Positions 3,113 through 27,724 of a stretch of DNA of 36,093 nucleotides are shown here, piece by piece. The DNA is taken from positions 1 through 36,093 of the forward strand of contig JANQJE010000183.1 in NCBI GenBank assembly GCA_028281795.1, written 5' to 3'. Numbering within the stretch: the first letter of the stretch is position 1; the number at the start of each line of letters is the position of its first letter. Below the pieces are notes generated by a model. That model saw only the letters and a list, made by a program, of their open reading frames with translations. It was not told the origin of the DNA and searched no databases. Origin of the DNA: Cohaesibacteraceae bacterium. GTDB lineage: Bacteria; Pseudomonadota; Alphaproteobacteria; Rhizobiales; MH13. Both the position numbers and the translations under genes were made by a program.

Positions 3113-3188
3113 GCCGCTTTAGCTCAGTTGGTAGAGCACATCATTCGTAATGATGGGGTCACGTGTTCGAGTCACGTAAGCGGCACCA
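3113..3188 (+). tRNA. tRNA-Thr (anticodon CGT), CCA encoded
   Basis: Cloverleaf readable by eye: acceptor GCCGCTT/AAGCGGC, D-arm GCTC..GAGC, anticodon stem-loop CATCA-TTCGTAA-TGATG, T-arm ACGTG-TTCGAGT-CACGT, discriminator A and CCA at 3186-3188. Confidence 0.95.
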
Positions 3189-3460: not shown

Positions 3461-3489
3461 TTGACGTTCCGGCATGTTCTGTCTACAAA
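3461..3489 (+). promoter_or_regulatory. Candidate sigma70-type promoter for the gntR-led operon (TTGACG-N17-TACAAA)
   Basis: TTGACG 3461-3466, 17-nt spacer, TACAAA 3484-3489, directly upstream of the palindrome and SD of the GntR gene. Confidence 0.5.
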
Positions 3490-3524
3490 TCCTCCAAACC
3501 TGTATGACAGGTTTGGAGGATTTG
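3486..3524. promoter_or_regulatory. Perfect inverted repeat (18 bp arms, 3-nt spacer): candidate GntR operator
   Basis: CAAATCCTCCAAACCTGT-ATG-ACAGGTTTGGAGGATTTG; arms are exact reverse complements. Core TGTATGACA resembles FadR-subfamily TGTNNNACA-type operators. Confidence 0.8.
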
Positions 3525-4256: not shown

Positions 4257-5462
4257 ATGAAGATAACCGCGCTTGAAACCATCCGGATCGACCAGCGCCC
4301 CAACCTTCTGTGGGTGCATGTCCACACTGATGAAGGGTTGGTGGGTTTGGGCGAAACCTTCTTTGGGGCCGCGACGGTTGAAGCCTACATCCACGAATAT
4401 GTTGCGCCGCGCGTTATCGGGCGTGATCCGTTGGAGATCGATCGCCTGGCGTCAGATCTGGTGGGATATCTTGGCTTCCGCTCGTCAGGAGCTGAGATGC
4501 GCGGCAATTCCGCCTTCGATATCGCGCTCTGGGATCTGTTCGGCAAGGCCACGGGCCAGCCGATTGCCCAACTTCTTGGTGGTTTCACCCGTCAGGAAAT
4601 ACGGACCTACAACACTTGCGCGGGGTCGGAATACATCAAGCGGGCCACCGGCCAGACAACGGCCAACTACGCGCTTGATACGACCGTTAAGCAGTATGAT
4701 GATCTCAATGGTTTCCTGCACAATGCCGATGAATTGGCGCTCTCCCTGCGTGAAGAGGGTATCACCGCGCTGAAAATCTGGCCGTTCGACATGGCGGCTG
4801 AAAAATCGGGCGGCCATTACATTTCAAGTGCCGATCTTGAAACCGCGCTCAAGCCTTTTGAGAAAATCCGCGATGCCGTTGGCAACACGATGGACATCAT
4901 GGTGGAGTTCCACTCCATGTGGCAGCTTCTGCCCGCCATGCAGATTGCCAAGGCCCTGGAGCCGTTCGGCACCTTCTGGCACGAAGACCCGATCAAAATG
5001 GACAGCCTGGCGAGCCTGAAGCGCTATGCCGATGTGTCGCCTGCACCGATTTCAGCGTCCGAAACACTGGCCTCACGCTGGGGCTTTCGGGATCTTCTGG
5101 AAACCGACGCAGCCGGCGTTGTGATGCTGGACATCTCCTGGTGCGGCGGTCTGTCGGAAGCACGCAAGATCGCTTCGATGGCGGAAGCCTGGCATCTGCC
5201 GGTCGCTCCGCACGACTGTACAGGCCCTGTGGTCCTGGCCGCCTCCACGCATCTTTCTCTGAACGCTCCCAATGCTTTGGTGCAGGAGAGCGTCCGCGCC
5301 TTTTACCGCACCTGGTACCGGGACCTCGTCACCGCGCTACCCCAGGTCACGAACGGCATGATCACCGTACCGCCCGGCCCAGGCCTTGGGCTGGAGCTGA
5401 ACCCGGACATCGACCGGGCTTTCACCACGTCGCGCAAAACGTCCGACGCAACCACGGTCTGA
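4257..5462 (+). CDS. Mandelate racemase/muconate lactonizing enzyme family protein (enolase superfamily; probable sugar-acid dehydratase)
   Basis: MKITALETIRIDQRPNLLWVHVHTDEGLVGLGETFFG... typical MR/MLE N-domain; barrel motifs (MVEFHSMW, WHEDP, SASETLASR, APHDCTGPV). Confidence 0.88.
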   Translation: MKITALETIRIDQRPNLLWVHVHTDEGLVGLGETFFGAATVEAYIHEYVAPRVIGRDPLEIDRLASDLVGYLGFRSSGAEMRGNSAFDIALWDLFGKATGQPIAQLLGGFTRQEIRTYNTCAGSEYIKRATGQTTANYALDTTVKQYDDLNGFLHNADELALSLREEGITALKIWPFDMAAEKSGGHYISSADLETALKPFEKIRDAVGNTMDIMVEFHSMWQLLPAMQIAKALEPFGTFWHEDPIKMDSLASLKRYADVSPAPISASETLASRWGFRDLLETDAAGVVMLDISWCGGLSEARKIASMAEAWHLPVAPHDCTGPVVLAASTHLSLNAPNALVQESVRAFYRTWYRDLVTALPQVTNGMITVPPGPGLGLELNPDIDRAFTTSRKTSDATTV

Positions 5463-5499: not shown

Positions 5500-6474
5500 A
5501 TGAAACTCAAGGCACTTGCACTTGCTGGCCTCATGGCCACCGTTTCGGGACCTGCTTTGGCGCAGGATTCCCTTGATATCGTGTTCGCGCATCATTCGTC
5601 TGCATCCAACACGTTCTGGCAGGCGGTGAAAAAGGGCTTCGACGATGCCTGTGAGCGTATCGACGCCAACTGCCAGATGATCTTCACCCAAACCGAAGGG
5701 GCTGTGCAGGAGCAGCTGGCCAACATGGAAGCCGCGCTCGCCCGCCAGCCTGATGCGATCCTGACCTCGATCGTCGACAACACGGCGCTTGATGAAATCA
5801 TCCAGCGCGCCCGCGATGCAGGCGTTATCGTAATCGGTGTCAATGTCGATGACCTTGAAGGCGCCAACGGCAATGCCCGGCAGGCCTTTATCGGTCAGGG
5901 CTTTCTGGCGGCCGGTTATTCGCTTGGCCGGGCGCAGTCGGCCAATTTTCCCGAGGAGGGTCCGATCAAGGTTCTGGTCGGTATCTCGGCGCCAGGCCAG
6001 AACTGGTCGGAGCAGCGTGGCGGCGGAGTTCTGCGGTTCATGGAGGATTATGCTGCGGCCAATCCGGATCGCGAAGTGACTTTCGAGCGCATTGATTCCG
6101 GCACCGACCTTGCCACCGTCGGAGATCGCGTCGGCGCTTATCTCGGCGCCAATCCCGATACCACCGCTTACTTCGATACGGGCTTCTGGCATGCCGCCGT
6201 GGCGCGGGTTCTTGCCGACCGTGGCGTGGCGCCGGGCGAGGTGCTTCTGGGCGGTTTTGACCTTGTGCCGGAAGCGGTGGAGCAGATGCAGAACGGCTAC
6301 ATTCAGGTTCAGGTGGATCAGCAGCCCTACATGCAGGGCTTCATGCCGGTGATGCAGGTCTATCTGGCGGAAACCGTCGGTCTTGCACCTGCCGATATCG
6401 ATACCGGACAGGGTATCGTCACGCCGGAAGATGCTGATGCCATCATGGATCTGTCGGCCCAAGGCCTTCGGTAA
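5500..6474 (+). CDS. Sugar ABC transporter substrate-binding protein (RbsB/FrcB-type, periplasmic binding protein type 1)
   Basis: Signal peptide MKLKALALAGLMATVSGPALAQ; PBP1 motifs (QMIFTQTEGAVQEQLANMEAALARQPDAILTSIVD; VIVIGVNVDD). Confidence 0.88.
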   Translation: MKLKALALAGLMATVSGPALAQDSLDIVFAHHSSASNTFWQAVKKGFDDACERIDANCQMIFTQTEGAVQEQLANMEAALARQPDAILTSIVDNTALDEIIQRARDAGVIVIGVNVDDLEGANGNARQAFIGQGFLAAGYSLGRAQSANFPEEGPIKVLVGISAPGQNWSEQRGGGVLRFMEDYAAANPDREVTFERIDSGTDLATVGDRVGAYLGANPDTTAYFDTGFWHAAVARVLADRGVAPGEVLLGGFDLVPEAVEQMQNGYIQVQVDQQPYMQGFMPVMQVYLAETVGLAPADIDTGQGIVTPEDADAIMDLSAQGLR

Positions 6475-6477
6475 GCC

Positions 6478-6563
6478 GGTTCTCTTCGAACCAACAGGTT
6501 CTCCCAGCGTCCAGGCGGATCTTCTGCGGACGTAACGGCGATCGGCATCCTGTGCCGGTCGCC
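6478..6563 (+). promoter_or_regulatory. Intergenic stem-loops between binding-protein and permease genes
   Basis: GGTTC-TCTTC-GAACC (6478-6492) and an 11-bp stem GGCGATCGGCA-tcctg-TGCCGGTCGCC (6537-6563, one T.G pair); no U-tract. Confidence 0.5.
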
Positions 6564-6596
6564 ACTCATTCCTTCACATTGGGGGCGCATAGGCCA

Positions 6597-7577
6597 ATGA
6601 AACGGCTGCTCAAACTCTCGTTACAAAAGCCTGAGCTGGCAGCGCTCCTGCTTCTGCTTATTCTGGTCGGTGTTTTTCAGATCACCTCGGGCGGCTTCTT
6701 TCTGAGCTATGCCAATATGCGCGGTCTTCTCGGGTTTCTGCCCGAAATGGCGCTTGTTGCGGTCGGTGTGACGCTGCTGATGATTTGCGGCGAGTTCGAT
6801 CTTTCGGTCGGCTCGGTCTTTGCGTTGATGCCCATGACGATGGCCGTGCTGATGGTGGATGGCTGGGCCTTTCTTCCCGCCGTCGCCGTGGGCATGGGAT
6901 TTTGCGCCCTGATCGGTTTCGTCAACGGGTTTCTCACCATTCGTTTCGGCATTCCCTCGTTCATCACCACGCTCGGCATGCTGTTCATGGCACGCTCGCT
7001 GACCGTGGTGATCTCCGGCGGTTTCCCGCCGCGCCTGAAGCTTGATGAGATCCCGGAGCACCTGTTCATTGCATTCGTCGGGCCTGGCGATCTCTTCCGT
7101 GCCTCGTTTCTCTGGTTTGTCGGCATCGCGCTGTTCGTTGCGTTTCTGCTCGGCAAAACCAATTTCGGCAACTGGGTCCGTGCGACCGGCGGATTTCTGC
7201 CCGCAGCGCAGGCGATGGGCATTCCGACGGCGCGTGTGAAGATCGCCTGCTTCATGCTGTGCTCCATGCTGGCGGGCTTTGCCGGCCTGATCCAGGTTCT
7301 GCGCCTCGGCTCGCCATTGCCATCCATCGGAGAGGGGTTGGAGCTTCAGGCTGTTGCGGCAGCCGTCATCGGCGGTACGTCGCTGTTCGGCGGGATCGGC
7401 TCGGTCCTTGGAGGTGTTATCGGGGCCACGCTGATCCGGGTCATCGATAACGGCATGGTGCTCAGTCAGGTTGACAGCAACTGGTTCAAGTTCGCCGTCG
7501 GTGCGCTCACCATCCTGGCCGTCGTTGCAAACGCCTGGCTGCGCAAGCGGGGCCGAGCAATGAAGGTGGAGACGTGA
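6597..7577 (+). CDS. Sugar ABC transporter permease (RbsC/FrcC-type)
   Basis: Multi-TM; motifs GEFDLSVGSVFAL, GFVNGFLTIRFGIPSFITTLGML, GGTSLFGGIGSVLGGVIGA. ATG at 6597. Confidence 0.88.
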   Translation: MKRLLKLSLQKPELAALLLLLILVGVFQITSGGFFLSYANMRGLLGFLPEMALVAVGVTLLMICGEFDLSVGSVFALMPMTMAVLMVDGWAFLPAVAVGMGFCALIGFVNGFLTIRFGIPSFITTLGMLFMARSLTVVISGGFPPRLKLDEIPEHLFIAFVGPGDLFRASFLWFVGIALFVAFLLGKTNFGNWVRATGGFLPAAQAMGIPTARVKIACFMLCSMLAGFAGLIQVLRLGSPLPSIGEGLELQAVAAAVIGGTSLFGGIGSVLGGVIGATLIRVIDNGMVLSQVDSNWFKFAVGALTILAVVANAWLRKRGRAMKVET

Positions 7578-7579
7578 TC

Positions 7580-8314
7580 ATGAGCAGCGAAGCCATCATC
7601 TCAGTGCGCAATCTGCACAAATGGTATTCCGGTGTTCACGCGCTGAAAGGCGTTTCACTCGACTTCAAACCGAACGAAGCGGTCGGTCTGGTCGGCGACA
7701 ATGGTGCAGGGAAATCTACCCTTATCAATATTCTCTCAGGTCTGCACATGGCTGATGAGGGTGAGGTGTTCGTGGAGGGCGAGAAGGCCTCCATCGCCAA
7801 TCCGCGCGATGCGATGGATCTGGGTATCGAGACGATCTACCAATACAATTCAATGGTCCCGATCATGTCCATCGCCCGGAACATGTTTATCGGGCGCGAA
7901 CCTTTGACATTCTCGCTCGGCGGTATCGGCATCCTGGATGAAACCAAGATGCGCCAGCAGAGCGTCGACGCCATCGCCGATGTCGACCTTCATCTCCGCT
8001 CACCTGATGCGCTCGTTGGAGAGCTTTCCGGCGGTCAGCGGCAGGGCGTTGCCATTGCCCGTGCCATGCATTTCCGCTCCAAGGTTATGATCCTCGATGA
8101 GCCAACCAACCATCTCTCGGTGAAAGAGACGACCAAGGTGATCGGGTTCGTCAAATCTCTCAAAGAGCAGAATGTCACGGGCATCTTCATCAGCCACAAC
8201 ATGCATCACGTGTTTGCCTGCTGCGACCGGATCATCGCCATGGCATTGGGCGAAGTCGTTCTCGACAAGCCCATCGGTGAAACAAACATCGATGAAGTCC
8301 ACGATCTGCTCTGA
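7580..8314 (+). CDS. Sugar ABC transporter ATP-binding protein (single-domain, FrcA-type)
   Basis: Walker A GDNGAGKST, signature LSGGQRQGVAIARAM, Walker B VMILDEPTNHLS; single ABC domain. Confidence 0.9.
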   Translation: MSSEAIISVRNLHKWYSGVHALKGVSLDFKPNEAVGLVGDNGAGKSTLINILSGLHMADEGEVFVEGEKASIANPRDAMDLGIETIYQYNSMVPIMSIARNMFIGREPLTFSLGGIGILDETKMRQQSVDAIADVDLHLRSPDALVGELSGGQRQGVAIARAMHFRSKVMILDEPTNHLSVKETTKVIGFVKSLKEQNVTGIFISHNMHHVFACCDRIIAMALGEVVLDKPIGETNIDEVHDLL

Positions 8315-8328
8315 CGGAAGGAAAACCC

Positions 8329-9051
8329 ATGACCGATTTTCTCAAAATGGATTTGTCCGGAAAGCGTGCGTTGATCACCGGTGCTCTGGGCACTCTGGGC
8401 AGCGCCATGGCGGAGCAGTTCAAACACGCGGGCGCCGATGTCACCATTCTTGATCGGCCAGACGGCGAGTCACGTGATGGGTTTGGCTATCTTGGCGTCG
8501 ATCTGAACGATCTTCCAGCTGCTGAAGAGGCTGTCAGAGCGGCTACGCCGTTCGATGTTCTGATCAACAATGCGGCGTTGATCATCAACAAGCCGCATGA
8601 GGCTTTCTCGCTGGCCGAGTATGAGGACCAGATTCGTGTCAACTCGTCCGCGGCCTTCGCGTTATCGCGGGTTTGCGCTCCTCATATGAAGGAGAAAGGC
8701 TGGGGCAAGATCGTCAACCTTACCTCCATCACGCTCAACGGGCAGTGGGACGGGTATGTGCCTTATGTTGCGTCCAAAGGTGCGATGCTGGGTCTCACCA
8801 AAGGGTTGGCGCGAGAGCTTGGACCGTTCGGCATCAATGTGAACGCCATTGCGCCCGGTGCGGTGAAGTCCGAGGCGGAAAACCGCGTCTTCGCCGACCG
8901 GTTGGACGAATACAATGACTGGGTGCTGGAACGGCAGTGCCTCAAATCGCGTATTGAAGCGAGCGATGTTGCCGATCTTGCGCTTTTCCTGTGTTCGGAT
9001 GCAGCGCGCATGATTTCCGGTCAGAACATGGCGATCGATGGCGGTTGGTGA
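8329..9051 (+). CDS. SDR-family oxidoreductase (probable sugar dehydrogenase)
   Basis: TGALGTLGSA Rossmann motif, NNAA, S..YxxxK (YVASKGAMLGLTKGLARELGPFGINVNAIAPG). Confidence 0.88.
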   Translation: MTDFLKMDLSGKRALITGALGTLGSAMAEQFKHAGADVTILDRPDGESRDGFGYLGVDLNDLPAAEEAVRAATPFDVLINNAALIINKPHEAFSLAEYEDQIRVNSSAAFALSRVCAPHMKEKGWGKIVNLTSITLNGQWDGYVPYVASKGAMLGLTKGLARELGPFGINVNAIAPGAVKSEAENRVFADRLDEYNDWVLERQCLKSRIEASDVADLALFLCSDAARMISGQNMAIDGGW

Positions 9052-9908
9052 TGCTCACGCTGACGGCTGACGATGCGGAGGCCCGCCTTGTTCCCGACCT
9101 TGGGGGCGGTCTTGCCGGTCTCTGGGTTGACGGAAAGCCTGTACTGCGGCCCTGGTCGGGTCATGAGAGCGAAGGTCCGTTTGCGTTGGCATGCAATATC
9201 CTGGTGCCGTTCTCCAACCGTATCGCGGGCGGTTTCACCTTTCAGGGCACGTATCACGCGATGCCGCCCAATCTCGACATCGATCCATTTGCCATTCACG
9301 GCGATGGCTTCCAGAAGCGTTGGTTGATCGATGAAGCGGATGGCACGAAAGCTGTTCTGCGCCTGACGGATGGGGCTTTCGGTCCCTATCGGTATGAAGC
9401 CGTCCAGACAGTGACGCTGACGGAGACGCGCCTGACGCTTGAGCTTGATATGACGAACCAGGCCGCTTTTGCACTGCCCTATGGGGGCGGGTTTCATCCC
9501 TGGTTTCCCCGCAGCGACGACACAGTGTTGCAGTTCAACGCACCGAACCATTGGCCGGAAGACGAGAGGCATCTGCCTGCAACGGACAGGCCGCAGGCCG
9601 CGCCTGATGATTTTGATTTCACGACCGCAAAACCGCTGCCGCAACGATGGATCAATTGCGGCTATTCCGGATGGGACGGTCGAGCCTGCATCGTGCAGGG
9701 GGAGGACGCTTTGTCTTTGACAGTCACCAGTGGATTGCTGACATCCGCCATTGTCTATTCTCCCGAACCCGATTGCGGGTTTTTTTGTTTCGAGCCGGTC
9801 AGCCATCCGGTGAACGCCCACAATCTGCCCGGTTTGCCAGGGCTTGCCATTCTGGAGCCGGGGAAAAGTCTCGCGATGCAGATGGTCTTGGACTGGAGCG
9901 GATCATGA
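9051..9908 (+). CDS. Aldose 1-epimerase (mutarotase) family protein
   Basis: NRIAGGFTFQG, AIHGDGFQKRW, PYGGGFHPWFPR; ATG overlaps SDR stop (TGATG). Confidence 0.85.
   Translation: MLTLTADDAEARLVPDLGGGLAGLWVDGKPVLRPWSGHESEGPFALACNILVPFSNRIAGGFTFQGTYHAMPPNLDIDPFAIHGDGFQKRWLIDEADGTKAVLRLTDGAFGPYRYEAVQTVTLTETRLTLELDMTNQAAFALPYGGGFHPWFPRSDDTVLQFNAPNHWPEDERHLPATDRPQAAPDDFDFTTAKPLPQRWINCGYSGWDGRACIVQGEDALSLTVTSGLLTSAIVYSPEPDCGFFCFEPVSHPVNAHNLPGLPGLAILEPGKSLAMQMVLDWSGS
9766..9786 (+). terminator. Intrinsic-terminator-like hairpin inside the epimerase coding sequence
   Basis: AACCCG-ATTG-CGGGTT followed by TTTTT (gaacccgattgcgggtttttttg), in frame within ...SPEPDCGFFCFEP.... Confidence 0.35.
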
Positions 9909-10804
9909 TGGATTTCAGGCCGATCAGCGAAGAACGCTATGCCGTCGCCGAGGGTCCGGTTTGGGATGGTCAGAAGGGAAAGCTCTTCTGGGTCGATATC
10001 ATCGGCAAGACGATCCATGCCCATGATCCAGCGTCGGACCGTAGTAAGAGATGGCTGTCGGAGGATTTTCCGACCGCTCTTGCCCTCTCCCAAGACGGCA
10101 ACCGCGCCATGGTCGCCCTGGCTGACGGTATGGCATGGTTGGACTTTGACGATGGTGTTTTCAAACCGTTTACCGCAGTGGATCCGATGGACGGTAACCG
10201 GCTCAATGAGGGCAAATGCGACCCGCAAGGCCGGTTCTGGACGGGTTCCATGCAGACCAATCTCAACCCCGATGGCTCCGGCCGTACCATGGACCGCAAT
10301 TCCGGTGCGCTGTTTCGTATCGATCCCGACGGTACTGTCAGTCCTCGCACCGAGCATGTGTTCGGTATCTCCAACACATTGGCCTGGTCGCCTGATGGCA
10401 GGACGTTCTATTTCGGCGACAGCGTTCGCAATGTCATCTTTGCCTATGACTGGCACGCCGACGACGGCGCGATCAGCAACCCTCGTGTTCATCTGGAAGG
10501 TTTCGAGCGTGGGGCACCGGACGGGTCGGCGATCGATGAGCATGGCTGCCTGTGGAACGCGCGCTTCGGCGGGTCCTGTCTTGTCCGCATCACCCCGGGC
10601 GGGGAGATCGATCGGATCGTCGAACTGCCGGTTACCAACCCCACCAGTTGCACATTCGGTGGTCCGGATCGTAAACAGTTGTTCGTTACGTCAGCTCAGT
10701 TCACCTTGAGCGATTATCAACTGGCAGCCAACCCGATGGAAGGTGCCGTGCTTTGTGCGGCCGTCGATACGCCGGGCGTGCCAGATCACCGTTTTGGAGC
10801 CTAG
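9905..10804 (+). CDS. SMP-30/gluconolactonase family protein (sugar lactonase)
   Basis: AVAEGPVWDGQKGKLFWVDI, NRLNEGKCDPQGRFWTGSM, SNTLAWSPDGRTFYFGDS; ATGA overlap with epimerase stop. The TAG stop is made by the inserted repeat element. Confidence 0.9.
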   Translation: MMDFRPISEERYAVAEGPVWDGQKGKLFWVDIIGKTIHAHDPASDRSKRWLSEDFPTALALSQDGNRAMVALADGMAWLDFDDGVFKPFTAVDPMDGNRLNEGKCDPQGRFWTGSMQTNLNPDGSGRTMDRNSGALFRIDPDGTVSPRTEHVFGISNTLAWSPDGRTFYFGDSVRNVIFAYDWHADDGAISNPRVHLEGFERGAPDGSAIDEHGCLWNARFGGSCLVRITPGGEIDRIVELPVTNPTSCTFGGPDRKQLFVTSAQFTLSDYQLAANPMEGAVLCAAVDTPGVPDHRFGA

Positions 10805-11112
10805 AGCATACCTTGTTTAGATTGGAGCGATTTGATGGACGAGGTTTTGTGTGTCCCACAAGGAAAAGACCGCAGCGCGATGCTGCGCATCGTGCGAGGA
10901 TTTTGACGAAGTGGGTCTGCAAAAGATCGCCAAGCCGGAGGTCATAACACATTGGAACAAAACATTTTCTCGCAATCGTCTGAGCTTGGTCTTTTCCGCA
11001 CCGGACAGCGTCGCGCGAAGCTAACGGTGCCCGCACCGCGTCGCCTCACGCTCCTTGCCGGACCGAAAAACTCCGGCGCTCAAACGATTCAATCTAAACA
11101 AGGTATGCTCTA
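10802..11112 (+). mobile_element. MITE-like element, copy 1 (311 bp including terminal TA dinucleotides)
   Basis: Perfect 23-bp terminal inverted repeat TAGAGCATACCTTGTTTAGATTG / CAATCTAAACAAGGTATGCTCTA; second copy of identical length at 18183..18493 in opposite orientation; no transposase ORF. Confidence 0.88.
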
Positions 11113-11116
11113 ACGT

Positions 11117-12253
11117 ATGAGTCACCCTGTTTGTCTTGGCCGCGTCTGGCGCGATGGTGTCGGGCCGTGCGTTGTGACAGTGCGTGGCGGTGACGATGTT
11201 GTCGACATCACCAGCAAGGTTGCACCCACGGTGCGTGATGTCTGTGAGATGGATGATCCGGCAGGCTTTGTTGTGTCCGCTGCGGGCGAGACGGTCGGCT
11301 CGCTGAAAGCGCTTCAGGATGCAGTTATCGGCGACCCTGCCATCACCCATCTTCTGGCTCCGTGTGATCTGCAGGCGGTCAAAGCATGCGGTGTGACGTT
11401 TGCCGGCTCGATGGTCGAGCGCGTCATCGAAGAGCGGGCCGCCGGTGATCCATCCGCCGCGCAGGCCATTCGCGAGCGTATTGGTGCCTTGATCGGTGAA
11501 AGTCTGCGCAACATCACGCCGGGTTCGGATGAGGCGATGGCCGTGAAGGAAGCGTTGATTGCTGAAGGCCTCTGGAGCCAGTATCTTGAGGTTGGCATCG
11601 GCCCGGATGCAGAGGTTTTTTCCAAAGCACAGGTCCTGTCCTCGGTGGGCCATGGCGCGAAAATCGGCCTGCATCCGGCATCGCAATGGAACAATCCCGA
11701 GCCTGAGGTGGTGCTGGCAGTTGCCTCCACTGGTACGATCGTCGGCGCGACGCTGGGCAATGATGTAAACCTGCGGGACATTGAAGGCCGCTCTGCGCTG
11801 TTGCTGTCAAAGGCGAAGGACAACAATGCCTCCTGTGCAATCGGTCCATTCATTCGCCTGTTCGATGAGGCGTTCACGCTGGATGATGTTCGTCGTCAGA
11901 CGCTCACCCTGCATGTTGAAGGACTCGATGGTTTCGTCTTGCATGGCTCCTCGGACATGGCCCAGATCAGCCGCGATCCGGCCGATCTGGTTGCGCAAAC
12001 ACTCGGGCCGCATCATCAATATCCCGATGGCATCATGCTGTTTCTCGGAACCCTGTTTGCCCCGACGGAGGACCGCGATCCGGACGGTGCGCCGGGCGAC
12101 GGCTTTACCCATCGGCTTGGCGATCTCGTTACCATCTCGTCACCCGATTTGGGCAGCCTTACCAACAGTGTCGATCTCTCGACCAACTGTCCCCCCTGGA
12201 CCTTTGGTGTCCGGGCTCTGATGGCCAATCTGGCCGACCGTAACCTTCTCTAA
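11117..12253 (+). CDS. AraD1 family / fumarylacetoacetate-hydrolase-fold protein (probable 2-keto-3-deoxy-sugar-acid dehydratase)
   Basis: FAH-fold motifs (GIGPDAEVFSKAQVLSSVGHGAKIGLHPASQWNNPEPEVVLAV; GNDVNLRDIEGRSALLLSKAKDNNASCAIGPFIRLFD); neighbourhood with SMP-30 and semialdehyde dehydrogenase. Confidence 0.8.
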   Translation: MSHPVCLGRVWRDGVGPCVVTVRGGDDVVDITSKVAPTVRDVCEMDDPAGFVVSAAGETVGSLKALQDAVIGDPAITHLLAPCDLQAVKACGVTFAGSMVERVIEERAAGDPSAAQAIRERIGALIGESLRNITPGSDEAMAVKEALIAEGLWSQYLEVGIGPDAEVFSKAQVLSSVGHGAKIGLHPASQWNNPEPEVVLAVASTGTIVGATLGNDVNLRDIEGRSALLLSKAKDNNASCAIGPFIRLFDEAFTLDDVRRQTLTLHVEGLDGFVLHGSSDMAQISRDPADLVAQTLGPHHQYPDGIMLFLGTLFAPTEDRDPDGAPGDGFTHRLGDLVTISSPDLGSLTNSVDLSTNCPPWTFGVRALMANLADRNLL

Positions 12254-12267
12254 CTGAAAGACATTCC

Positions 12268-13791
12268 ATGCTGCAGAAACGCTCGTTGTCTGGCAAACAT
12301 CTGATCGCCGGTTCCTGGGTTGGCGCATCCACAACATTTGAAAACATGCCGGTAGAAGGCGAGGCGGACAGCTTTGCCGCCGGGACACCGGACCTTGTGA
12401 ACCAGGCTGTGGAAGCCGCCGAAGAGGCCTTCTGGCCGTTCAGTGCGACGAGCCGAGGCGAACGCGCGAACTTCCTACGCACGATCGCCGATGAGATCGA
12501 TGCGCGTGGTGATGCCATCACGGCGATGGGCATGAAGGAAACCGGCCTACCGGAAGCTCGTCTGGTTGGCGAGCGTGGCCGCACGGTCGGTCAGCTTCGT
12601 TTGTTCGCCGATCACATCGAAAAGGGCGACTACCTGGATCGTCGCCGTGACGGCGCTTTGCCCGACCGCCAGCCGTTACCGCGCCCCGACTTGCGGCTGA
12701 TGCAGGTGCCGACCGGCCCGGTCGCCGTGTTTGGTGCCTCAAACTTTCCGCTCGCCTTCTCCGTTGCCGGAGGTGATACAGCTTCCGCGCTGGCGGCGGG
12801 TTGTCCGGTGGTGGTCAAAGGGCACTCAGCGCATCCGGGCACAGGTGAGCTCGTTGCTCAGGCGATCGATGCGGCCATCCAAGCAACCAAGATGCATCCC
12901 GGCGTTTTTTCTCTGATTCAAGGCGGTAACCGGTCTGTGGGCGAAGCGTTGGTGCAGCATCCCCTGATCCGTGCCGTCGGCTTCACCGGTTCCCTTGGTG
13001 GTGGCCGGGCGCTGTTCAACCTGTGTGCTGCACGGCCTGATCCGATTCCGTTTTTCGGTGAGCTCGGTTCGGTCAACCCGATGTTTGTCCTGCCGCATGC
13101 TATAGCCAACAGAGCCGACCAGATTGGCGCAGGTTGGGCAGCTTCGTTGACCATGGGTGCCGGACAGTTCTGCACCAATCCGGGCATTGCCGTGGTGCTG
13201 GATGGCGCCGATGCCAGTGCTTTCGTGGCGGCCACCCGCAAGGCCCTGGAACCGCTGACTGCCCAGACCATGCTGACCGATGGCATGGCCGAGGCTTACA
13301 CGTCCGGTCGCACCATCATCGCGACGGCAGACGGCGTGAAAGAAGTGCTGTCGAACAGCTGTCAGGGCCGGCAGGCAACAGCCGATCTTTATGAAGTTTC
13401 CGGCGATGACTGGTTGGCCAACCATGCGCTGTCCGAAGAGGTATTCGGACCGCTGGGTCTGGTCGTTCGGTCCAAGGATGCCGATCAAATGCTGACGATC
13501 GCGAGGAGTTTGCAGGGTCAGTTGACCTGTACGTTGCATCTGGACGACGCAGACGCAGAGCTTGGGCAGAGCCTGATGCCGATTTTGACCCGCAAGGCTG
13601 GCCGTTTGCTGGCCAATGGCTACCCGACGGGCGTTGAGGTCTCCGACACGATGGTCCATGGCGGACCTTATCCGGCATCGACCAATTTCGGAGCGACCTC
13701 GGTCGGAACATTGTCGATCCGCCGTTGGCTCAGGCCGATCTGCTATCAGAACATGCCCGATGCTTTGCTTCCTCAGGACGTTAAGAGCTGA
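12268..13791 (+). CDS. Aldehyde dehydrogenase, probable alpha-ketoglutarate semialdehyde dehydrogenase
   Basis: ALDH motifs VAVFGASNFPLAFSVAGGDTASALAAGCPVVVKGHSAHPGT, FTGSLGGGRAL, ELGSVNPMFVLP, MGAGQFCTNPG, EEVFGPLGLVV. Confidence 0.85.
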   Translation: MLQKRSLSGKHLIAGSWVGASTTFENMPVEGEADSFAAGTPDLVNQAVEAAEEAFWPFSATSRGERANFLRTIADEIDARGDAITAMGMKETGLPEARLVGERGRTVGQLRLFADHIEKGDYLDRRRDGALPDRQPLPRPDLRLMQVPTGPVAVFGASNFPLAFSVAGGDTASALAAGCPVVVKGHSAHPGTGELVAQAIDAAIQATKMHPGVFSLIQGGNRSVGEALVQHPLIRAVGFTGSLGGGRALFNLCAARPDPIPFFGELGSVNPMFVLPHAIANRADQIGAGWAASLTMGAGQFCTNPGIAVVLDGADASAFVAATRKALEPLTAQTMLTDGMAEAYTSGRTIIATADGVKEVLSNSCQGRQATADLYEVSGDDWLANHALSEEVFGPLGLVVRSKDADQMLTIARSLQGQLTCTLHLDDADAELGQSLMPILTRKAGRLLANGYPTGVEVSDTMVHGGPYPASTNFGATSVGTLSIRRWLRPICYQNMPDALLPQDVKS

Positions 13792-13805: not shown

Positions 13806-13837
13806 AAAAGGCGCATGGCTTCTGCCATGCGCCTTTT
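13806..13837. terminator. Bidirectional intrinsic terminator between convergent ALDH and coxM genes
   Basis: 14-bp perfect stem AAAAGGCGCATGGC-ttct-GCCATGCGCCTTTT with A-tract/T-tract flanks. Confidence 0.85.
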
Positions 13838-14680: not shown

Positions 14681-17041
14681 TTACTCGGCCGCCACGGGCA
14701 TCTGGGTTGCCTGAATCGCCGCCCAAACGCGCTGCGGGGTTGCCGGCATCTCGATATTCTCCGTGCCAATGGCATCGACGATGGCGTTGATCACGGCAGG
14801 CGGAGCGCCGATGGCGCCAGCTTCACCGCAGCCTTTCAGACCGAGCGGGTTGTTCGGCGACGGTGTGCAGCCATGGCCGATGACATAGCTTGGTACGTCG
14901 TCGGCGCGCGGCATGGTGTAGTCCATATAGGATCCCGTCAGCAGCTGGCCTTCATCGTCATAGACAACGCCTTCCAGCAGCGCCTGACCGATGCCCTGGG
15001 TGACGCCGCCATGCACCTGGCCTTCCACGATCATCGGGTTGATGATGGTGCCGAAATCATCGGCCGCCACAAATTGCACGATCTGCGTAACGCCGGTTTC
15101 GGGATCGACTTCGACTTCGCAGATGAACGTGCCGGACGGGAAGGAGAAGTTCACCGGATCGAAGAAGCTGGTTTCCTTCAGGCCCGGTTCCATGCCTTCG
15201 GGCAGATTGTGCGCCATGTAGGCAGCCAATCCGATCTCATGCCAGGCCATCTTCTTGTCGGTACCGGCAACCTTGGCCTCGCCGCCTTCGATGACGATGT
15301 CGTCCTCGGACGCTTCCAGCGAATGGGCGACGATCTTCTTGACCTTGGCTTCGACTTTGTCGAGCGCCTTCATAACCGCCGACATCCCAACCGGCCCGGA
15401 GCGTGAGCCATAGGTCCCCATGCCGAACTGGACCTTATCGGTGTCGCCATGGACGATGGAGACGTTCTCCACCGGGATGCCGAACCTGTCGGATGCAAGC
15501 TGACAGAAGGTGGTTTCGTGACCCTGGCCGTGGCTGTGCGTGCCGGTCAGGATTTCGATGGTGCCGACCGGGTTCACCCGCACTTCTGCGCTTTCCCAAA
15601 GGCCGACGCCAGCGCCCAAAGATCCTGCGGCGGCTGACGGGGCCAGCCCGCAGGCTTCGATGAAGCAGGAATAGCCCAGGCCACGCAACTTGCCGCGAGA
15701 CGCAGCCTCGGCTTTGCGAGCCGGGAAGCCGGCCACGTCAGCCGCCTTTTGTGCCATGTCGAGCACGGTGTCGAAGTCGCCGCTGTCATAGGCGAGCAGT
15801 ACCTGGGTCTGATAGGGGAACGCACGAATGAAGTTCGTCCGGCGGAGATCGGCCACGTCCCGGCCCATCTCGCGTGCGGCCTTTTCTACGATCCGTTCAA
15901 TGAGGTAGGTGGCTTCGGGCCGCCCGGCGCCGCGATAGGCATCCACTGGAACCGTGTTCGTGTAGACTGCTTTCACGTTGCCGTAGATGGCGGGGATGTC
16001 GTACTGGCCCGACAACAGAGTGCCGTAAAGATAGGTCGGCGTGGCGGTCGCAAACAGGGATGCGTAAGCGCCGATGTTGGCGATCGTGTCCACCTTGAAA
16101 CCGACGATCTTGCCGGTGTCGTCGAAGCCCATGCGGGCCTTGGTGACGTGATCGCGGCCATGGGCATCGGTCATGAAGGCTTCGGAGCGGTCGGCTGTCC
16201 ATTTCACCGAGCGTCCGGTTTTCATCGATGCCCAAAGACAGGTGATTTCTTCAGGGTAGATGTAGATTTTCGAACCGAAGCCGCCGCCCACATCGGGTGC
16301 GATCACGCGCAGCTTGTGCTCCGGTGCGACGTTGTAAAACGCCGACAAGACCAGGCGTGCCACGTGGGGGTTCTGCGATGTCGTGTAGAGCGTGTAGTGA
16401 TCCTCGGCGCTGTCGAACACCGCAATGGCCGCCCGCGGCTCCATGGCGTTGGGCGAAAGGCGATTGTTCGTCAGCTCGATCTCGGTGATGTGTGCCGCGC
16501 CGGAGAGCGCCGCGTCGGTCTTGGCCTCATCGCCGATCTCCCAGTCGAAACAGAGATTGTTGGCGATCTCGTCATGCACGAGCGGCTGATTGTCTTGCAG
16601 CGTCTTTGCGGTGCTGACGGAGGGAGCAAGCTCCTCATAGTCCACGTCCACCGCTTCAGCAGCCAGACGCGCCTGCGCCTGCGTTTCGGCGATGACTACT
16701 GCAACCGCATCGCCGACATAGCGCACCTTTTCGGTCGCCAGGGCAGACCAGGCGCCGATGTTCATCGGCGAGCCGTCCTTGGACGTGATGGCCCACCCGG
16801 TGATGATGTTGCCGATGCCATCGCCTGTGAGTTGCGCGCCGTTGAGAACCGCGATCACGCCATCCATGGCCTCAGCGGCCGATGCGTCGATCCCGGTTAC
16901 CTTTGCATGGGCGTGCGGTGAGCGCACAAAGGCTGCGTAAGCCTGGTTCTCCATACGAATGTCGTCGGTGTACTTGCCCTTGCCGGTGATGAACCGCTTG
17001 TCTTCCTTGCGCTTGACGCGCGCGCCGATCCCGTCGCTCAT
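14681..17041 (-). CDS. coxL: Molybdopterin-binding large subunit, CODH-like form II
   Basis: Xanthine dehydrogenase/CODH large subunit motifs; active-site loop AYRGAGR (15920..15940) typical of form II (BMS) CoxL, not AYx[23 protein letters not shown]. Confidence 0.9.
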
Positions 17042-17062
17042 TGTTCTCTCCCTTCAGCTCGC

Positions 17063-17533
<471 letters not shown>

Positions 17534-17619
17534 TCTTGTCCTCCCCTGTGCGCGAAGGTTTTCCTTCGCTTGGCTCTTATCCGCCCGGTTGTTCCGGCCG
17601 GTTATTCCAGATCCAGCCG

Positions 17620-18081
17620 TTAAGCCGTTTCTGCCGCAGGCTCCGGGTTCAAATGGGCCTGAAAATTGTCGAAAAACTTGCCGGCCAGTTTCCGGGCAGT
17701 GGAATCGATCAAGCGGCTGCCCAACTGCGCCAGCTTGCCGCCGACGGTTGCATGAACCGTATAGGCGAGCAGCGTTTCGCCAGCCTCCTCGGCAAGCGTG
17801 ACGTCGGCGCCGCCTTTGGCAAACCCGGCCACGCCGCCCTTGCCTTCGCCCTGAATGGTATAGCTTTCCGGCGCTTTGATGTTGGTGAGTTCAACTTCGC
17901 CTTCAAAGCGTGCCTTAACCGGTCCGATCTTCTGCACAACGATGGCGTGAAAACCTGTCTCGGAGGTCTTGTTCAGTTCTTCGCAGCCAGGAATGCAGGC
18001 GCGCAGGACATCCTCATCATTGAGGGCCGTCCACACCGTCTCCCGAGATGCCGCAATCCGGTGTTCGCCATTCATGTCCAT
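17620..18081 (-). CDS. coxG: CoxG-family carbon monoxide dehydrogenase subunit G (SRPBCC fold)
   Basis: [65 protein letters not shown]. Confidence 0.88.
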
Positions 18082-18182
18082 GGCGGAGCACCTCCCAGTT
18101 TGTTCCCGACAGGAAGCGTATCGGCAGAAAAAAAGAAATCAAGCAGCAACCCGGCGTAAGAGCCTGTTCGTTTATGCAACCT

Positions 18183-18493
18183 TAGAGCATATCTTGTTGA
18201 GATTGAATCGTTTGAGCGCCGGAGTTTTTCGGTTCGGCAAGGAGCACGAGGCGACGCGGTGCGGGCACCGTTAGCTTCGCGCGACGCCGTCCGGGACGGA
18301 AAAGACCAAGCTCAGACGGTTGCGATACCTGGTTCTGTATCAGCATGGAACCACCCGCAGCTTGGCGATCTTTTGCGCACCCACTTCGTTAAAATCCTCG
18401 CACGATGCGCTGCATCGCGCTGCGGTCTTTTCCTTGTGGGACGCACAAAATCTCATCCATCAAATCGCTCCAATCTCAACAAGACATGCTCTA
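18183..18493 (-). mobile_element. MITE-like element, copy 2 (311 bp including terminal TA dinucleotides)
   Basis: Imperfect (22/23) terminal inverted repeat TAGAGCATATCTTGTTGAGATTG / CAATCTCAACAAGACATGCTCTA; homologous to 10802..11112 in reverse orientation, same total length. Confidence 0.88.
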
Positions 18494-19753
18494 GGCTGGA
18501 AGCACCGCAGCATGCTGATAGACCGGCACGCGAGATCGAAGGAAACTTGGTCCGTGCAGTGCCTGAGTCAGATCGCTCAGGCTTTCGACATTGTGGCATG
18601 CGTGCAGGCGATCAACATGCGGGAGCATCGTGCGGATGCCTCCCGCCAAAGGAGCAAAACCATCCCAGCGCAGCAAGGGGTTCAGCCAAATCAGCCTGCG
18701 CGAGGATAGCGCCAGACGCTCCATCTGTGCGTCCAGCAGATCGAGATCGGCGCGTTCCAGACCATCGGTAACAAGCAGCACCATGGCGCCCCGTCCCAGC
18801 ACGCGGCGGCTCCACTGTTTGTTGAAACGCTCAAGGGCCGGGCCAATGCGTGTGCCGCCCTCCCAATCTGTTACCTCCCGCCCGATTTGCTCGAGCGCGG
18901 CGTCGGCATCGCCGCGCGCCAGAGCACGGGAAATGTTGGTCAATTCGGTGCCGAAGGTGAAGGCGTGCACCCGGCCCCAGTCCTGATGAGGGTTGTGCGA
19001 CAGCGCATGCAAGAAGCGCATCAGGATGCGGGCGTAGGCGGCCATGGATCCGGAGATATCGCAGATGGCCACCAGATCCGGTGCGCGGACTTCCGGAGCC
19101 CGCTGCGCCAACCGCAGAACTTCGCCGCCGCGGCGCATGGAGGCCCGCATCGTCGCGCGCGCATCGGGCCGTGCCCGACGCGATGTCGGGGACAGGCGTC
19201 GGGAAGGGTGGCGCGGTGCTGGAAGGTTGAGCGATGCCACGGCTTTTTCCGCCTCACGCAACTCCGCCGCCGACATTTGCTCAAAGTCTTTGGTTCGGAT
19301 GACTTCCAATGCCGACCAGCTCAAGGCCGCGTCGGTTTCCACCCGGTTTTCTTCCGGTCTGTTGTCCGCCTTGGGCGGGTCGCCGAGCGCATCGCCAGCC
19401 CGGCGGGTGCCGGCGTCGCGTTTCTTCGGCGGTGTCTCGTCGCGCAGTTGCGGCGAGAGCATGTGCATCATGGCGTTCAAGAACTCCGGGTCGCGCCAGA
19501 ACATCGCGAACACTTGATGGAACACCTCAAGCTGATCGGACCGGTGGATCAGCGTTGCCCGCAGCGTGTGGTAGAAATCGACGCGGCTTGTGAAACCGGC
19601 CTGCTCGACCGCCTGTATCGCTGTTTCCACCTGGGCCGTTCCAACACGGATACCGGCCTTCCGCAGGGCGCGGGCGAAGTGGATAACGTTCTCCACCAGC
19701 CGCCCGTCAAGCGCATCAAGCTGTCGGCTTGTTGGGTCGTTGGCTTCCGGCAT
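18491..19753 (-). CDS. coxE: VWA domain protein, CoxE-like
   Basis: MIDAS motif AICDISGSMAAYARILMRFLHAL; GTRIGPALERFNKQW; overlaps the CoxD-like stop (TGATG). TAG stop is supplied by the element terminus. Confidence 0.88.
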   Translation of the reverse strand: MPEANDPTSRQLDALDGRLVENVIHFARALRKAGIRVGTAQVETAIQAVEQAGFTSRVDFYHTLRATLIHRSDQLEVFHQVFAMFWRDPEFLNAMMHMLSPQLRDETPPKKRDAGTRRAGDALGDPPKADNRPEENRVETDAALSWSALEVIRTKDFEQMSAAELREAEKAVASLNLPAPRHPSRRLSPTSRRARPDARATMRASMRRGGEVLRLAQRAPEVRAPDLVAICDISGSMAAYARILMRFLHALSHNPHQDWGRVHAFTFGTELTNISRALARGDADAALEQIGREVTDWEGGTRIGPALERFNKQWSRRVLGRGAMVLLVTDGLERADLDLLDAQMERLALSSRRLIWLNPLLRWDGFAPLAGGIRTMLPHVDRLHACHNVESLSDLTQALHGPSFLRSRVPVYQHAAVLPA

Positions 19754-20691
19754 CAGGATGCTTTGGCGAGCATGGCCTGCGCGTCGTCCAGCAGGCGTGT
19801 GGTTTCGGCGCCAGCAATACGGGCGATGTCGTCCTGGTACTTCAGGACAGCTCCGAGCGTGTCGGTGATGAGGTCTGGTGACAGGGCCACGGCGTCCAGC
19901 GCGACCAGGCAGCGCGCCCAGTCGATGCTTTCGGCTACGCCTGGACCCTTGAAGAGGTCTTCATTGCGCAGGCCCTGTACGAACGCGACGATTTGAGCGG
20001 AAAGGGTTTCCGTGGCCTCCGGGACGCGGGCGCGGAGGATGGACAGTTCCCGTTCAAACGCCGGGTAGTCCACCCAGTGATAGAGACAACGTCGTTTCAG
20101 CGCATCATGGACTTCGCGGGTGCGGTTTGAGGTGAGAACCACGACAGGCGGTTCAGCGGCCCGGATCGGCCCGAGTTCGGGGATCGTGACCTGGAAGTCG
20201 GACAGAACTTCGAGCAGGAAGGCCTCAAAGGGTTCATCAGTCCGGTCGATTTCGTCGATCAGCAGGACCGGCGGGCCTTCCGCGTGGGGCTGGAGTGCCT
20301 CAAGCAAGGGACGGCGAACAAGGAACTGATCGGAAAAGAGTTCAGTTTGCAAAGCCGTGCGATCCGTGTTGCCGGCCGCTTCGGCCGTGCGGATCGCGAT
20401 CATCTGTGCGGCAAAGTTCCACTCGTAGATCGCCGAGGCTGCGTCCAAGCCTTCATAGCATTGCAAGCGAATGAGCCTCCGACCTAGGGCGCCGGCCAGG
20501 GCTTTGGCAATCTCGGTTTTGCCGACGCCTGCTTCGCCCTCCAAGAAAAGCGGTTTGCCAAGGGACAGGGAGAGGAATGCAACTGTGGCCAGATCGCGCC
20601 CGCAGACATAATTCTGCTCGGCCAGAAGCTCGATCGTCCGGTCAATCGAAGACGGCATGGCTGCGGGCTGGTCGGTCTCGGGGCTGGCCAT
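19753..20691 (-). CDS. coxD: MoxR-family AAA+ ATPase, CoxD-like
   Basis: Walker A EGEAGVGKTEIAKALA, Walker B PVLLIDEIDRTDEPFEAFLLEVLSD, VLTSNRTREVHDALKRRCLYHW. Confidence 0.9.
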   Translation of the reverse strand: MASPETDQPAAMPSSIDRTIELLAEQNYVCGRDLATVAFLSLSLGKPLFLEGEAGVGKTEIAKALAGALGRRLIRLQCYEGLDAASAIYEWNFAAQMIAIRTAEAAGNTDRTALQTELFSDQFLVRRPLLEALQPHAEGPPVLLIDEIDRTDEPFEAFLLEVLSDFQVTIPELGPIRAAEPPVVVLTSNRTREVHDALKRRCLYHWVDYPAFERELSILRARVPEATETLSAQIVAFVQGLRNEDLFKGPGVAESIDWARCLVALDAVALSPDLITDTLGAVLKYQDDIARIAGAETTRLLDDAQAMLAKAS

Positions 20692-22473: not shown

Positions 22474-23775
22474 ATGTCGCTGAAAACACTTCTGGCCGCA
22501 GGTCTGCTGACCGGCGCGCTGGCCACGCCTGCTGTGGCACAAACCGAGATAACCTGGTGGCACGCCATGGGCGGTCAACTTGGCGAGTCGCTCAACCAGA
22601 TCGCTGAAAACTTCAACGCCAGCCAGGACGACTATTTTGTTACGCCTGTCTTCCGTGGCACGTACGAAGAGACATTGACTGCCGGTATCGCAGCGTTCCG
22701 CGCTGGCGAGCAGCCGAACATCATCCAGGTTTTCGATGCTGGTGCGGCCACGGTCATCGGTGCTGAAGGTGCCGTGATCCCGGTGGAAGAGATGATGGCA
22801 TCCAATGGTGTCGATTTCGACATCAACGACTACATCTCCGGCGTTCGCTACTTCTACGCCGATGCTGACGGAACCATGATCGGTATGCCGTTCAACTCCT
22901 CAACGCCCGTCCTTTATTACAACGAAGCCGCGTTGGAAGAAGCTGGTGTGTCTGCTCCGACTACCTGGGAGGAATTTCAGGATGTGACCGGCCCGGCACT
23001 GCGCGATGCTGGCTACATCCCGCTTGCGCAGTCGCATCTGCCCTGGATCTTCACCGAGAATTTCTTCTCGCGTCATGACCTGCAATTTGCATCCAACAAC
23101 AATGGTTATGAAGGCCTCGACACCGAAATTATGGTCAACCACCCCGCGATCCGCTCTCATTTTGAAGCGCTTGTTCGCTGGCAGGACGAAGGCCTGTTTT
23201 CCTGGTATGGCACCGGCTGGGGCGACAACCAGCAGCCTTTCCAGCAGGGTGAAGTTGCCATGTGGTTGGGTTCGTCGGCATCCTGGGGCGGCCTGCTTGA
23301 AACGACCGATTTCCCCTTTTCGGCGACCATGCTGCCTTATTGGGAAGCTGTGAACCCCGAGCCGACCCAGACCTTCATCGGTGGTGCAGCCCTGTTCGCC
23401 ATGGCTGGCCATTCCGATGATGAAAATGCCGCCACGGCCGCCTTCTTTGAGTATCTTGCATCGGCTGAAGCCCAGTACGACTGGCACACGGCGACGGGTT
23501 ACGTGCCGATCACCCAGGCTGCTTATGAACTCGCGACCGAGCGTGGTCACTACGAAGAGTTCCCGGCTGCTGAAGTTGCCATCAATCAGCTGACTTTGCC
23601 TGCTGGCGAGTTCACACGCGGCTACCGCATGGGTTTCTACGTCCAGATCCGCGACGTTATGAACCGTGAGTATGGCCGCATCCTCACCGATGAAACCGAT
23701 GTGGACAGCGCCTTCGAGGCCATTGAGGAGGAAGCCAACCGCTTGCTTGCGCGCTTCGCGCAGACCCAGGGCTAA
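22474..23775 (+). CDS. ugpB: sn-glycerol-3-phosphate ABC transporter substrate-binding protein
   Basis: Signal peptide; EITWWHAMGGQLGESLNQIAENFNASQDDYFVTPVFRGTYEETLTAGIAAFRAGEQPNIIQVFDAGAATV; PFNSSTPVLYYNEAALEEAG matches remembered UgpB sequence pattern. Confidence 0.88.
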   Translation: MSLKTLLAAGLLTGALATPAVAQTEITWWHAMGGQLGESLNQIAENFNASQDDYFVTPVFRGTYEETLTAGIAAFRAGEQPNIIQVFDAGAATVIGAEGAVIPVEEMMASNGVDFDINDYISGVRYFYADADGTMIGMPFNSSTPVLYYNEAALEEAGVSAPTTWEEFQDVTGPALRDAGYIPLAQSHLPWIFTENFFSRHDLQFASNNNGYEGLDTEIMVNHPAIRSHFEALVRWQDEGLFSWYGTGWGDNQQPFQQGEVAMWLGSSASWGGLLETTDFPFSATMLPYWEAVNPEPTQTFIGGAALFAMAGHSDDENAATAAFFEYLASAEAQYDWHTATGYVPITQAAYELATERGHYEEFPAAEVAINQLTLPAGEFTRGYRMGFYVQIRDVMNREYGRILTDETDVDSAFEAIEEEANRLLARFAQTQG

Positions 23776-23796
23776 TCCGCCTTAACCAGACACGCG

Positions 23797-23822
23797 TGGT
23801 GGCCGCCGAATGGTGGCCACCA
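23797..23822 (+). promoter_or_regulatory. Intergenic hairpin between ugpB and ugpA
   Basis: TGGTGGCC-N10-GGCCACCA; alternative overlapping 14-bp palindrome ATGGTGGCCACCAT (23810-23823). Confidence 0.45.
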
Positions 23823-23838
23823 TGCTCTTTTGTGAGGG

Positions 23839-24729
23839 GTGCCGACGTTGAAGCGGGCTGTCTTTTCCAATCCCTGGCTGCCGATCCTGATCTTGTCGCC
23901 GCAGCTGGCGATCATTGCGGTGTTTTTCTATTGGCCGGCCGGATTTGCCATCCAATCGTCTTTCTTCCTGCAAGATCCGTTCGGCTTCGGGTCAACCTTT
24001 GTCGGCGTTTCCAACTATACCGACCTGTTCGCATCATCCGAATATCTGCGCGTGGCCTGGTTCACGATCATCTATACGGTGCTCGTTACCTTCTTTTCGC
24101 TGGCCATCGCGCTCCTTCTGGCCGTGAAAGCCGACAATGTTCTGCGAGGCGCCAAGACCTATCGAACGCTTCTCATGTGGGTGTATGCCATCGCGCCGCC
24201 GGTCGCCGGTCTCATGGGCGTGATGCTCTTCGATCAGAGCACCGGTCCCATCACGGAACTGTTCGGCGCTTTCGGCTGGGATTTCAGGCTGGGTGTGAAT
24301 TACTGGGACACCGCCACGGCGATGATCATCGTGGCCGTCTGGAAGCAGGTTCCCGTGAACTTCATCTTTTTTCTGTCCGGCCTTCAGTCGATCCCGCGCT
24401 CGGTGCGCGAAGCTGCACTGATCGACAACCGCTCGGCTTCGGGCCGGTTTTGGGATGTGATCTTTCCGCTGCTGGCGCCGACTGCCTTCTTCCTGCTGAT
24501 CATCAACATCACCTATGCCCTGTTCGATACGTTCGGCGTCATCGATACTCTGGTGAAGGGCGAGCCGGGCAACAATCCGATGACCCTGGTTTACAAGGTT
24601 TTCATCGACGGATTCCGTGGCAATGACCTTGGAGGTTCATCGGCCCAGTCCGTGGTGCTGATGGTGTTGGTTCTGATTCTGACCATTGTGCAGTTCCGCA
24701 TGATGGAACGGCGAATCCATTACACATGA
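23839..24729 (+). CDS. ugpA: sn-glycerol-3-phosphate ABC transporter permease
   Basis: MalF-like multi-TM protein with EAALIDNRSASGRFWDVIFPLLAPT (EAA motif); between ugpB and ugpE. Confidence 0.87.
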   Translation: MPTLKRAVFSNPWLPILILSPQLAIIAVFFYWPAGFAIQSSFFLQDPFGFGSTFVGVSNYTDLFASSEYLRVAWFTIIYTVLVTFFSLAIALLLAVKADNVLRGAKTYRTLLMWVYAIAPPVAGLMGVMLFDQSTGPITELFGAFGWDFRLGVNYWDTATAMIIVAVWKQVPVNFIFFLSGLQSIPRSVREAALIDNRSASGRFWDVIFPLLAPTAFFLLIINITYALFDTFGVIDTLVKGEPGNNPMTLVYKVFIDGFRGNDLGGSSAQSVVLMVLVLILTIVQFRMMERRIHYT

Positions 24730-24738
24730 GGCACGATG

Positions 24739-25647: not shown

Positions 25648-25672
25648 GGAACCCCGGGTGGGGTAGTGCGCC

Positions 25673-27717: not shown

Positions 27718-27724
27718 GGCGTTG

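Follow-up and report, generated by a model that had tools for sequence, protein, structure and literature searches.

What is a perfect 39-base palindrome doing between the -10 element and the start codon of a bacterial regulator gene? The palindrome occupies positions 3486-3524 of the window, by which we mean the whole 36,093-nucleotide stretch of DNA analysed here. Our reading, which we hold to be probable, is that two things are superposed in it: a core that is the self-repression operator of a GntR/FCD regulator, and outer arms that are the product of a replication template switch.

A perfect palindrome far beyond chance

Both direct reading and a repeat search return an inverted repeat between positions 3486-3503 and 3507-3524, with 18-nt arms that are 100% complementary and a 3-nt centre, ATG, exactly as the preliminary description had it. 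Its 39 bases fall into two parts, a 19-base core (3496-3514) and 10-bp outer arms, and the left arm begins at the third base of the -10-like TACAAA. The overlap with the -10 element, the Shine-Dalgarno sequence GGAGGA inside the right arm and the TTG start at 3527 also read as they had been described. The features of the locus are as follows.

3461..3466, + strand: putative -35 element TTGACG (from sequence; TTGAC(A/G) lies similarly distant from the operator in most orthologs)
3484..3489, + strand: putative -10 element TACAAA (17-nt spacing; aligns, at 6 nt ahead of the operator, with TACATA, TACACA and TACAGG in the closest orthologs)
3486..3495, + strand: left outer arm CAAATCCTCC, lineage-specific, overlapping the -10 element and discriminator
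3496..3514, + strand: core operator AAACCTGT-ATG-ACAGGTTT, GT-N3-AC, FadR type (found at 63 of the 64 orthologous loci, and at two plasmid loci of Sinorhizobium/Ensifer)
3515..3524, + strand: right outer arm GGAGGATTTG with the Shine-Dalgarno GGAGGA (3515-3520), ancestral, conserved in G003 and L043
3527..4246, + strand: GntR/FCD (FadR-type) transcriptional regulator, TTG start (Pfam GntR, FCD and FadR_C; model and fold search; TTG and spacing kept in G003)
4257..5462, + strand: mandelate racemase / muconate lactonizing enzyme-family dehydratase of the enolase superfamily, the conserved partner gene (Pfam)
5500..13791, + strand: rest of the likely operon (Pfam/NCBIfam)

The palindrome is far beyond chance. 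When 60 sequences matched in length and composition were generated with an order-1 Markov model, their longest perfect arms measured 8-13. As a background for perfect repeats, we used the window together with 236 kb of other contigs from its own genome (G000), and 200 kb of G003. Within the ~272 kb of its own genome, the 39-base palindrome is the longest perfect inverted repeat, and the runner-up is a terminator-like repeat of 17 bp. The 39-mer occurs once in its own genome and, allowing up to 3 mismatches and a free centre, is absent from 397 other genomes of the order. Given the conserved core alone, complementarity at all ten flank pairs is expected with P ~1e-6 per locus. We rejected a terminator because no T-run lies 3' of the palindrome, and we also rejected readings as an RNA switch or as a multi-dimer array; an Rfam search returned only the tRNA and chance hits.

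The regulator and its operon

The regulator carries an N-terminal GntR winged helix and a C-terminal FCD domain, which places it in the FadR subfamily (PF00392, 1.2e-14; PF07729, 2.6e-24; PF07840, 2.2e-8), and a fold search with its model gave FadR-DNA complexes as the best matches. FadR-subfamily proteins have seven C-terminal helices and VanR proteins six; the model has seven, the first of which (84-92) lies within a low-confidence stretch. The metal site of FCD domains follows the pattern D-x3-H, H, H, and the corresponding residues D152, H156, H203 and H225 are invariant across 29 orthologs.

The dehydratase gene adjoins the regulator gene on its downstream side in 63 of 64 loci. Its nearest solved structures are 4dx3/4dxk, and a literature search on these PDB codes found nothing relevant. 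The remaining genes encode a sugar-binding protein, a permease, an ATPase, an SDR, a mutarotase, an SMP-30 lactonase, a FAH-family protein and an aldehyde dehydrogenase, and the gene order from GntR to FAH is kept in G003 (L133). Going by known pathways, we take the operon to serve an oxidative, Weimberg-like catabolism of sugar acids. A perfect 14-bp inverted repeat 3' of the aldehyde dehydrogenase gene (AAAAGGCGCATGGC/GCCATGCGCCTTTT, 13806-13837) is likely the operon's terminator.

Directly upstream of the operon, on the same strand, stands a tRNA-Thr (CGT) gene (3113-3188). No tRNA was found beside the operon in nine relative loci tested, and the operon therefore has a different neighbourhood here. 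Farther downstream, the window holds a CO-dehydrogenase-like molybdoprotein gene accompanied by CoxE-type VWA and AAA ATPase genes (14681-20691, - strand), and a second sugar ABC transporter cluster beside a glycoside hydrolase family 2 gene (22474-30467).

The core reads as a conserved FadR-type operator

We compared the core across 64 orthologous loci obtained from one scan (Rhizobiales, Rhodobacteraceae and others). We found that AAACCTGTNNNACAGGTTT, with at most 4 changes, is present upstream of the FadR-type GntR gene in 63 of them, and the plasmid loci of Ensifer and Sinorhizobium likewise carry the core operator. It is not recognisable at L073, the single locus that is also without a detected homologue of the partner dehydratase. 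A GT-N3-AC dyad is therefore kept together with the regulator and in the regulator's own promoter. Judged by its sequence, the core is an ordinary autoregulatory FadR-type operator ahead of a dehydratase / sugar-ABC operon. The proposal of an autoregulatory operator for a FadR-subfamily GntR protein is borne out in this respect by the constant position of the core, the GntR and FCD domains and the match to the FadR-DNA fold. Poor conservation in close relatives, against which that proposal was to be judged, is true of the outer arms and untrue of the core.

Of the one-sided changes in the core, 36 give mismatches (with both C.C and G.G at pair 4/16) and 11 give wobble pairs. Because they are mostly non-wobble changes, they fit the recognition of DNA half-sites and not the upkeep of an RNA stem. 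A search of the genome for a second operator gave 8 pattern matches (at most 3 mismatches) versus 21 for the reversed control, none of them claimable, and no second site was found within the ortholog loci; the regulator therefore looks local.

Several relatives have an SMP-30 lactonase gene oriented divergently from the GntR gene (L038, L039, L041, L045-L048, L051, L056, L063, L070 and L093), and there the operator may serve a two-way promoter. At L144 (S. meliloti pSymA), a 50%-identical regulator is accompanied by a variant operator, AAACCTATCTGATAGGTTG, within a larger sugar-acid cluster that holds further GntR genes.

A literature search for the motif strings found nothing relevant. The operator motif AAACCTGT-N3-ACAGGTTT is well supported and apparently undescribed in the literature searched; it applies to FadR-type regulators of enolase-superfamily dehydratase / sugar-ABC operons, a large family in the alphaproteobacteria, and opens the regulator and its ligand to direct tests.

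The predicted transcript leaves out the left outer arm

Most orthologs have a TTGAC-N17/18-TAnnnA promoter ahead of the core. The gap between the two is 6 nt in the nearest relatives and, for the most part, 10-11 nt elsewhere; the promoter is weaker or different at the Agrobacterium loci and at some Rhizobium loci. The window's own promoter did not pass a generic sigma-70 scanner because TACAAA has no T at position 6, and the case for a TTGACG/TACAAA promoter rests on conservation. Given the conserved spacing between promoter and core, the RNA should start at the core or a few bases before it, and the 5' end of the transcript is probably at or near the operator's first base, at about 3495-3497. 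The Shine-Dalgarno GGAGGA is followed by 6 nt and then by TTG.

The position of this start bears on the second layer of control that had been suggested, in which the Shine-Dalgarno sequence is locked in a hairpin. In the predicted fold, RNA from 3496 forms an 8-bp 5' hairpin in which GGAGGA is essentially unpaired, while transcripts that begin at 3486 or above fold into the full 18-bp hairpin with the Shine-Dalgarno inside (-28.4 kcal/mol for the 39-mer). A transcript that starts at about 3496 would leave out the left outer arm, so that only one strand of the outer stem would be transcribed; a lock on the Shine-Dalgarno is therefore only possible in RNA that reads through from upstream. Compensatory or wobble upkeep of the stem is likewise not seen, either in the core, with its excess of plain mismatches, or in the unconserved outer arms. 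An RNA hairpin that locks the Shine-Dalgarno is unlikely, since the left arm would be -10 and discriminator DNA, and the suggested second layer falls away for RNA from the conserved promoter.

The outer arms are private to one genome and have a polarity

The outer arms are perfect in their own genome alone, and no ortholog keeps the outer sequence. The long arms, which had been counted as part of the operator, are thus absent from all orthologs. The window has the outer flanks TACAAATCCTCC (left) and GGAGGATTTGGT (right); in the same order, the same-genus G003 has TACAGGAATAAA and GGAGGAAATGGT, and L032 has TACATAAATTCA and GGGGAAATTGGT.

The two arms differ in their relation to these relatives. 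The right outer arm is identical at 8/10 positions to G003 and at 9/10 to L043. The left outer arm agrees at 2/10 positions with the left arm of G003 and at 8/10 with the right arm of G003 once this is reverse-complemented; the two positions left over are those at which the right arms of the window and G003 differ. The recipient arm is therefore the reverse complement of a kept donor arm and unlike the relative's own arm, as a template switch would leave it. Over the left side and centre together (21 nt), 17/21 positions agree with G003 in the reverse-complement comparison versus 10/21 in the direct one. All three bases of the centre ATG are unlike those of G003, L032 and L033. Reverse-complementing ATG gives CAT, the most frequent centre (19 of 63 orthologs, including L032 and L033); ATG itself is also present in 3 other orthologs.

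We sought the same signature in 71 loci, requiring a kept donor arm, an unlike recipient arm and a cross-match of at least 7/10. With the window as recipient it appeared in 4/4 informative comparisons, in 3 of which the left arm was the recipient, and in 0/210 others; this result partly restates the perfect symmetry and the conserved right arm, and what it adds is the polarity.

Among the orthologs minus the window, flanks pair slightly more than expected (P ~0.016), and a partial flank dyad, TTTTCC/GGAAAA, is present in Agrobacterium; given these two observations, symmetric flanks may have some function. The operator flanks of L081-L083 (TTATGG/CCATAA, TTGTGG/CCGTAA and AGTGG/CCACAA) are near-symmetric despite sequence change and are possibly further cases of arm homogenisation.

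Origin of the outer arms and competing explanations

In the mechanism that we infer, a GntR/FCD dimer would bind the 19-bp core and repress its own promoter together with the downstream sugar-acid (Weimberg-like) operon, and the pathway's sugar acid would presumably free the repressor from the operator. With the RNA starting at the operator, bound repressor would cover the start site adjoining the -10 element. The core quasi-palindrome would then have been the place of a replication template switch that copied the flank on the Shine-Dalgarno side, reverse-complemented, onto the -10/discriminator side and, probably, flipped the 3-nt centre so that CAT became ATG. Cells would have tolerated this because a usable -10, TACAAA, was left. 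In E. coli, template switching renders quasi-palindromes perfect (PMC7202029), and in a yeast case 5-bp arms became 16-bp perfect arms with inversion of the spacer (PMC8604942).

Template switching appears to be the likeliest origin of the outer arms, and selection for symmetric flanks is its main rival. Only one same-genus ortholog exists among 5 family genomes; the ancestral left arm is therefore poorly fixed, which leaves room for selection. The whole 39 bp could be a selected extended operator, in which outer-arm contacts or a second dimer strengthen repression in its own species. Ten flank pairs are very improbable by chance, the other orthologs have their slight pairing excess, and the outer arm AAATCCT resembles the half-site AAACCT with one inserted base. 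However, the outer sequence is kept in no ortholog, the outer arms form no second GT-N3-AC site, and the regulator model has an ordinary wHTH and a disordered N-terminus without an additional DNA-binding domain, so that we consider an extended operator rather unlikely. It is unlikely, too, that the extended arms are functional in a combined sense, with one dyad serving as repressor site, as -10/discriminator and as a Shine-Dalgarno lock in read-through RNA; if this were true, one palindrome would both autoregulate the operon and insulate it from upstream transcription.

Two-layer control would have the 18-bp RNA hairpin lock the Shine-Dalgarno in upstream-started transcripts, such that the local promoter alone gives translatable mRNA. 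The stable predicted fold of RNA from 3486, with the Shine-Dalgarno paired, is what such control would use, and the tRNA-Thr gene is a possible source of read-through, and has only a weak terminator-like site. Yet RNA from the conserved promoter would begin at the core with a free Shine-Dalgarno, the relatives tested have no tRNA ahead of the operon, their flanks are not consistently paired with the Shine-Dalgarno, and core variation does not track RNA pairing; we regard this control as quite unlikely. The perfect symmetry is private to one fragmented genome (a 79%-complete assembly of 298 contigs), as a fold-back chimera of assembly or library origin would be. Such chimeras are usually longer, and an intact promoter is not expected to remain in them. 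Here, short arms lie inside a 36-kb contig, with the -10 element, Shine-Dalgarno and TTG start normally spaced on either side, and an artefact is very improbable. Finally, Shine-Dalgarno-like purine runs and pyrimidine-rich discriminators do pair at 8-9/10 positions in 8/1482 cross-pairings, but a 10/10 pairing has its P of ~1e-6 per locus, or ~1e-4 over 39 non-redundant loci, which makes chance pairing of the two sequences extremely improbable.

If template switching produced the outer arms, the locus is a likely natural example of a transcription-factor dyad that seeded a template-switch mutation and so gave rise to a long perfect palindrome. It also cautions that long perfect arms should not be taken for function without a comparison with relatives. 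We found no paper that links GntR, an extended palindrome and autoregulation.

Comparison with known systems

E. coli FadR and other FadR-subfamily (GntR/FCD) systems share with this locus the protein fold, the GT-N3-AC dyad and an operator at the promoter's start site, here a predicted one. Compared to the E. coli FadR-type operators, the half-sites are CCTGT/ACAGG in AAACCTGTNNNACAGGTTT, a sugar-acid operon is controlled, and the arms are lengthened to 18 bp. NanR, LldR (CGL2915) and DhdR/PdhR are similarly GntR/FCD local repressors of carboxylate or sugar-acid catabolism (NCBIfam and PDB hits). The regulator is none of these, since its NCBIfam scores are far under every equivalog cut-off, and there is a single dyad here in contrast to the NanR-type repeats. 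Atu1419 of Agrobacterium fabrum (VanR type; PMC7797058), from the same order, is also an FCD regulator of a catabolic operon with an autoregulatory palindrome within its own promoter. Unlike the present locus, it uses 10-bp ATGTATACAT sites and a tetramer that loops two of them, whereas we find one site and, with the first helix at low confidence, seven predicted C-terminal helices.

The outer arms resemble the quasi-palindrome template-switch mutations described with E. coli QP reporters (PMC7202029), at yeast REG2 (PMC8604942) and in RNA stems (PMC8794818). In those cases, an imperfect repeat becomes longer and perfect, the donor arm is unchanged and the spacer can invert. In contrast to them, the sequence here is a natural operator, and the proposed change is deduced from distant relatives and not from a dated event.
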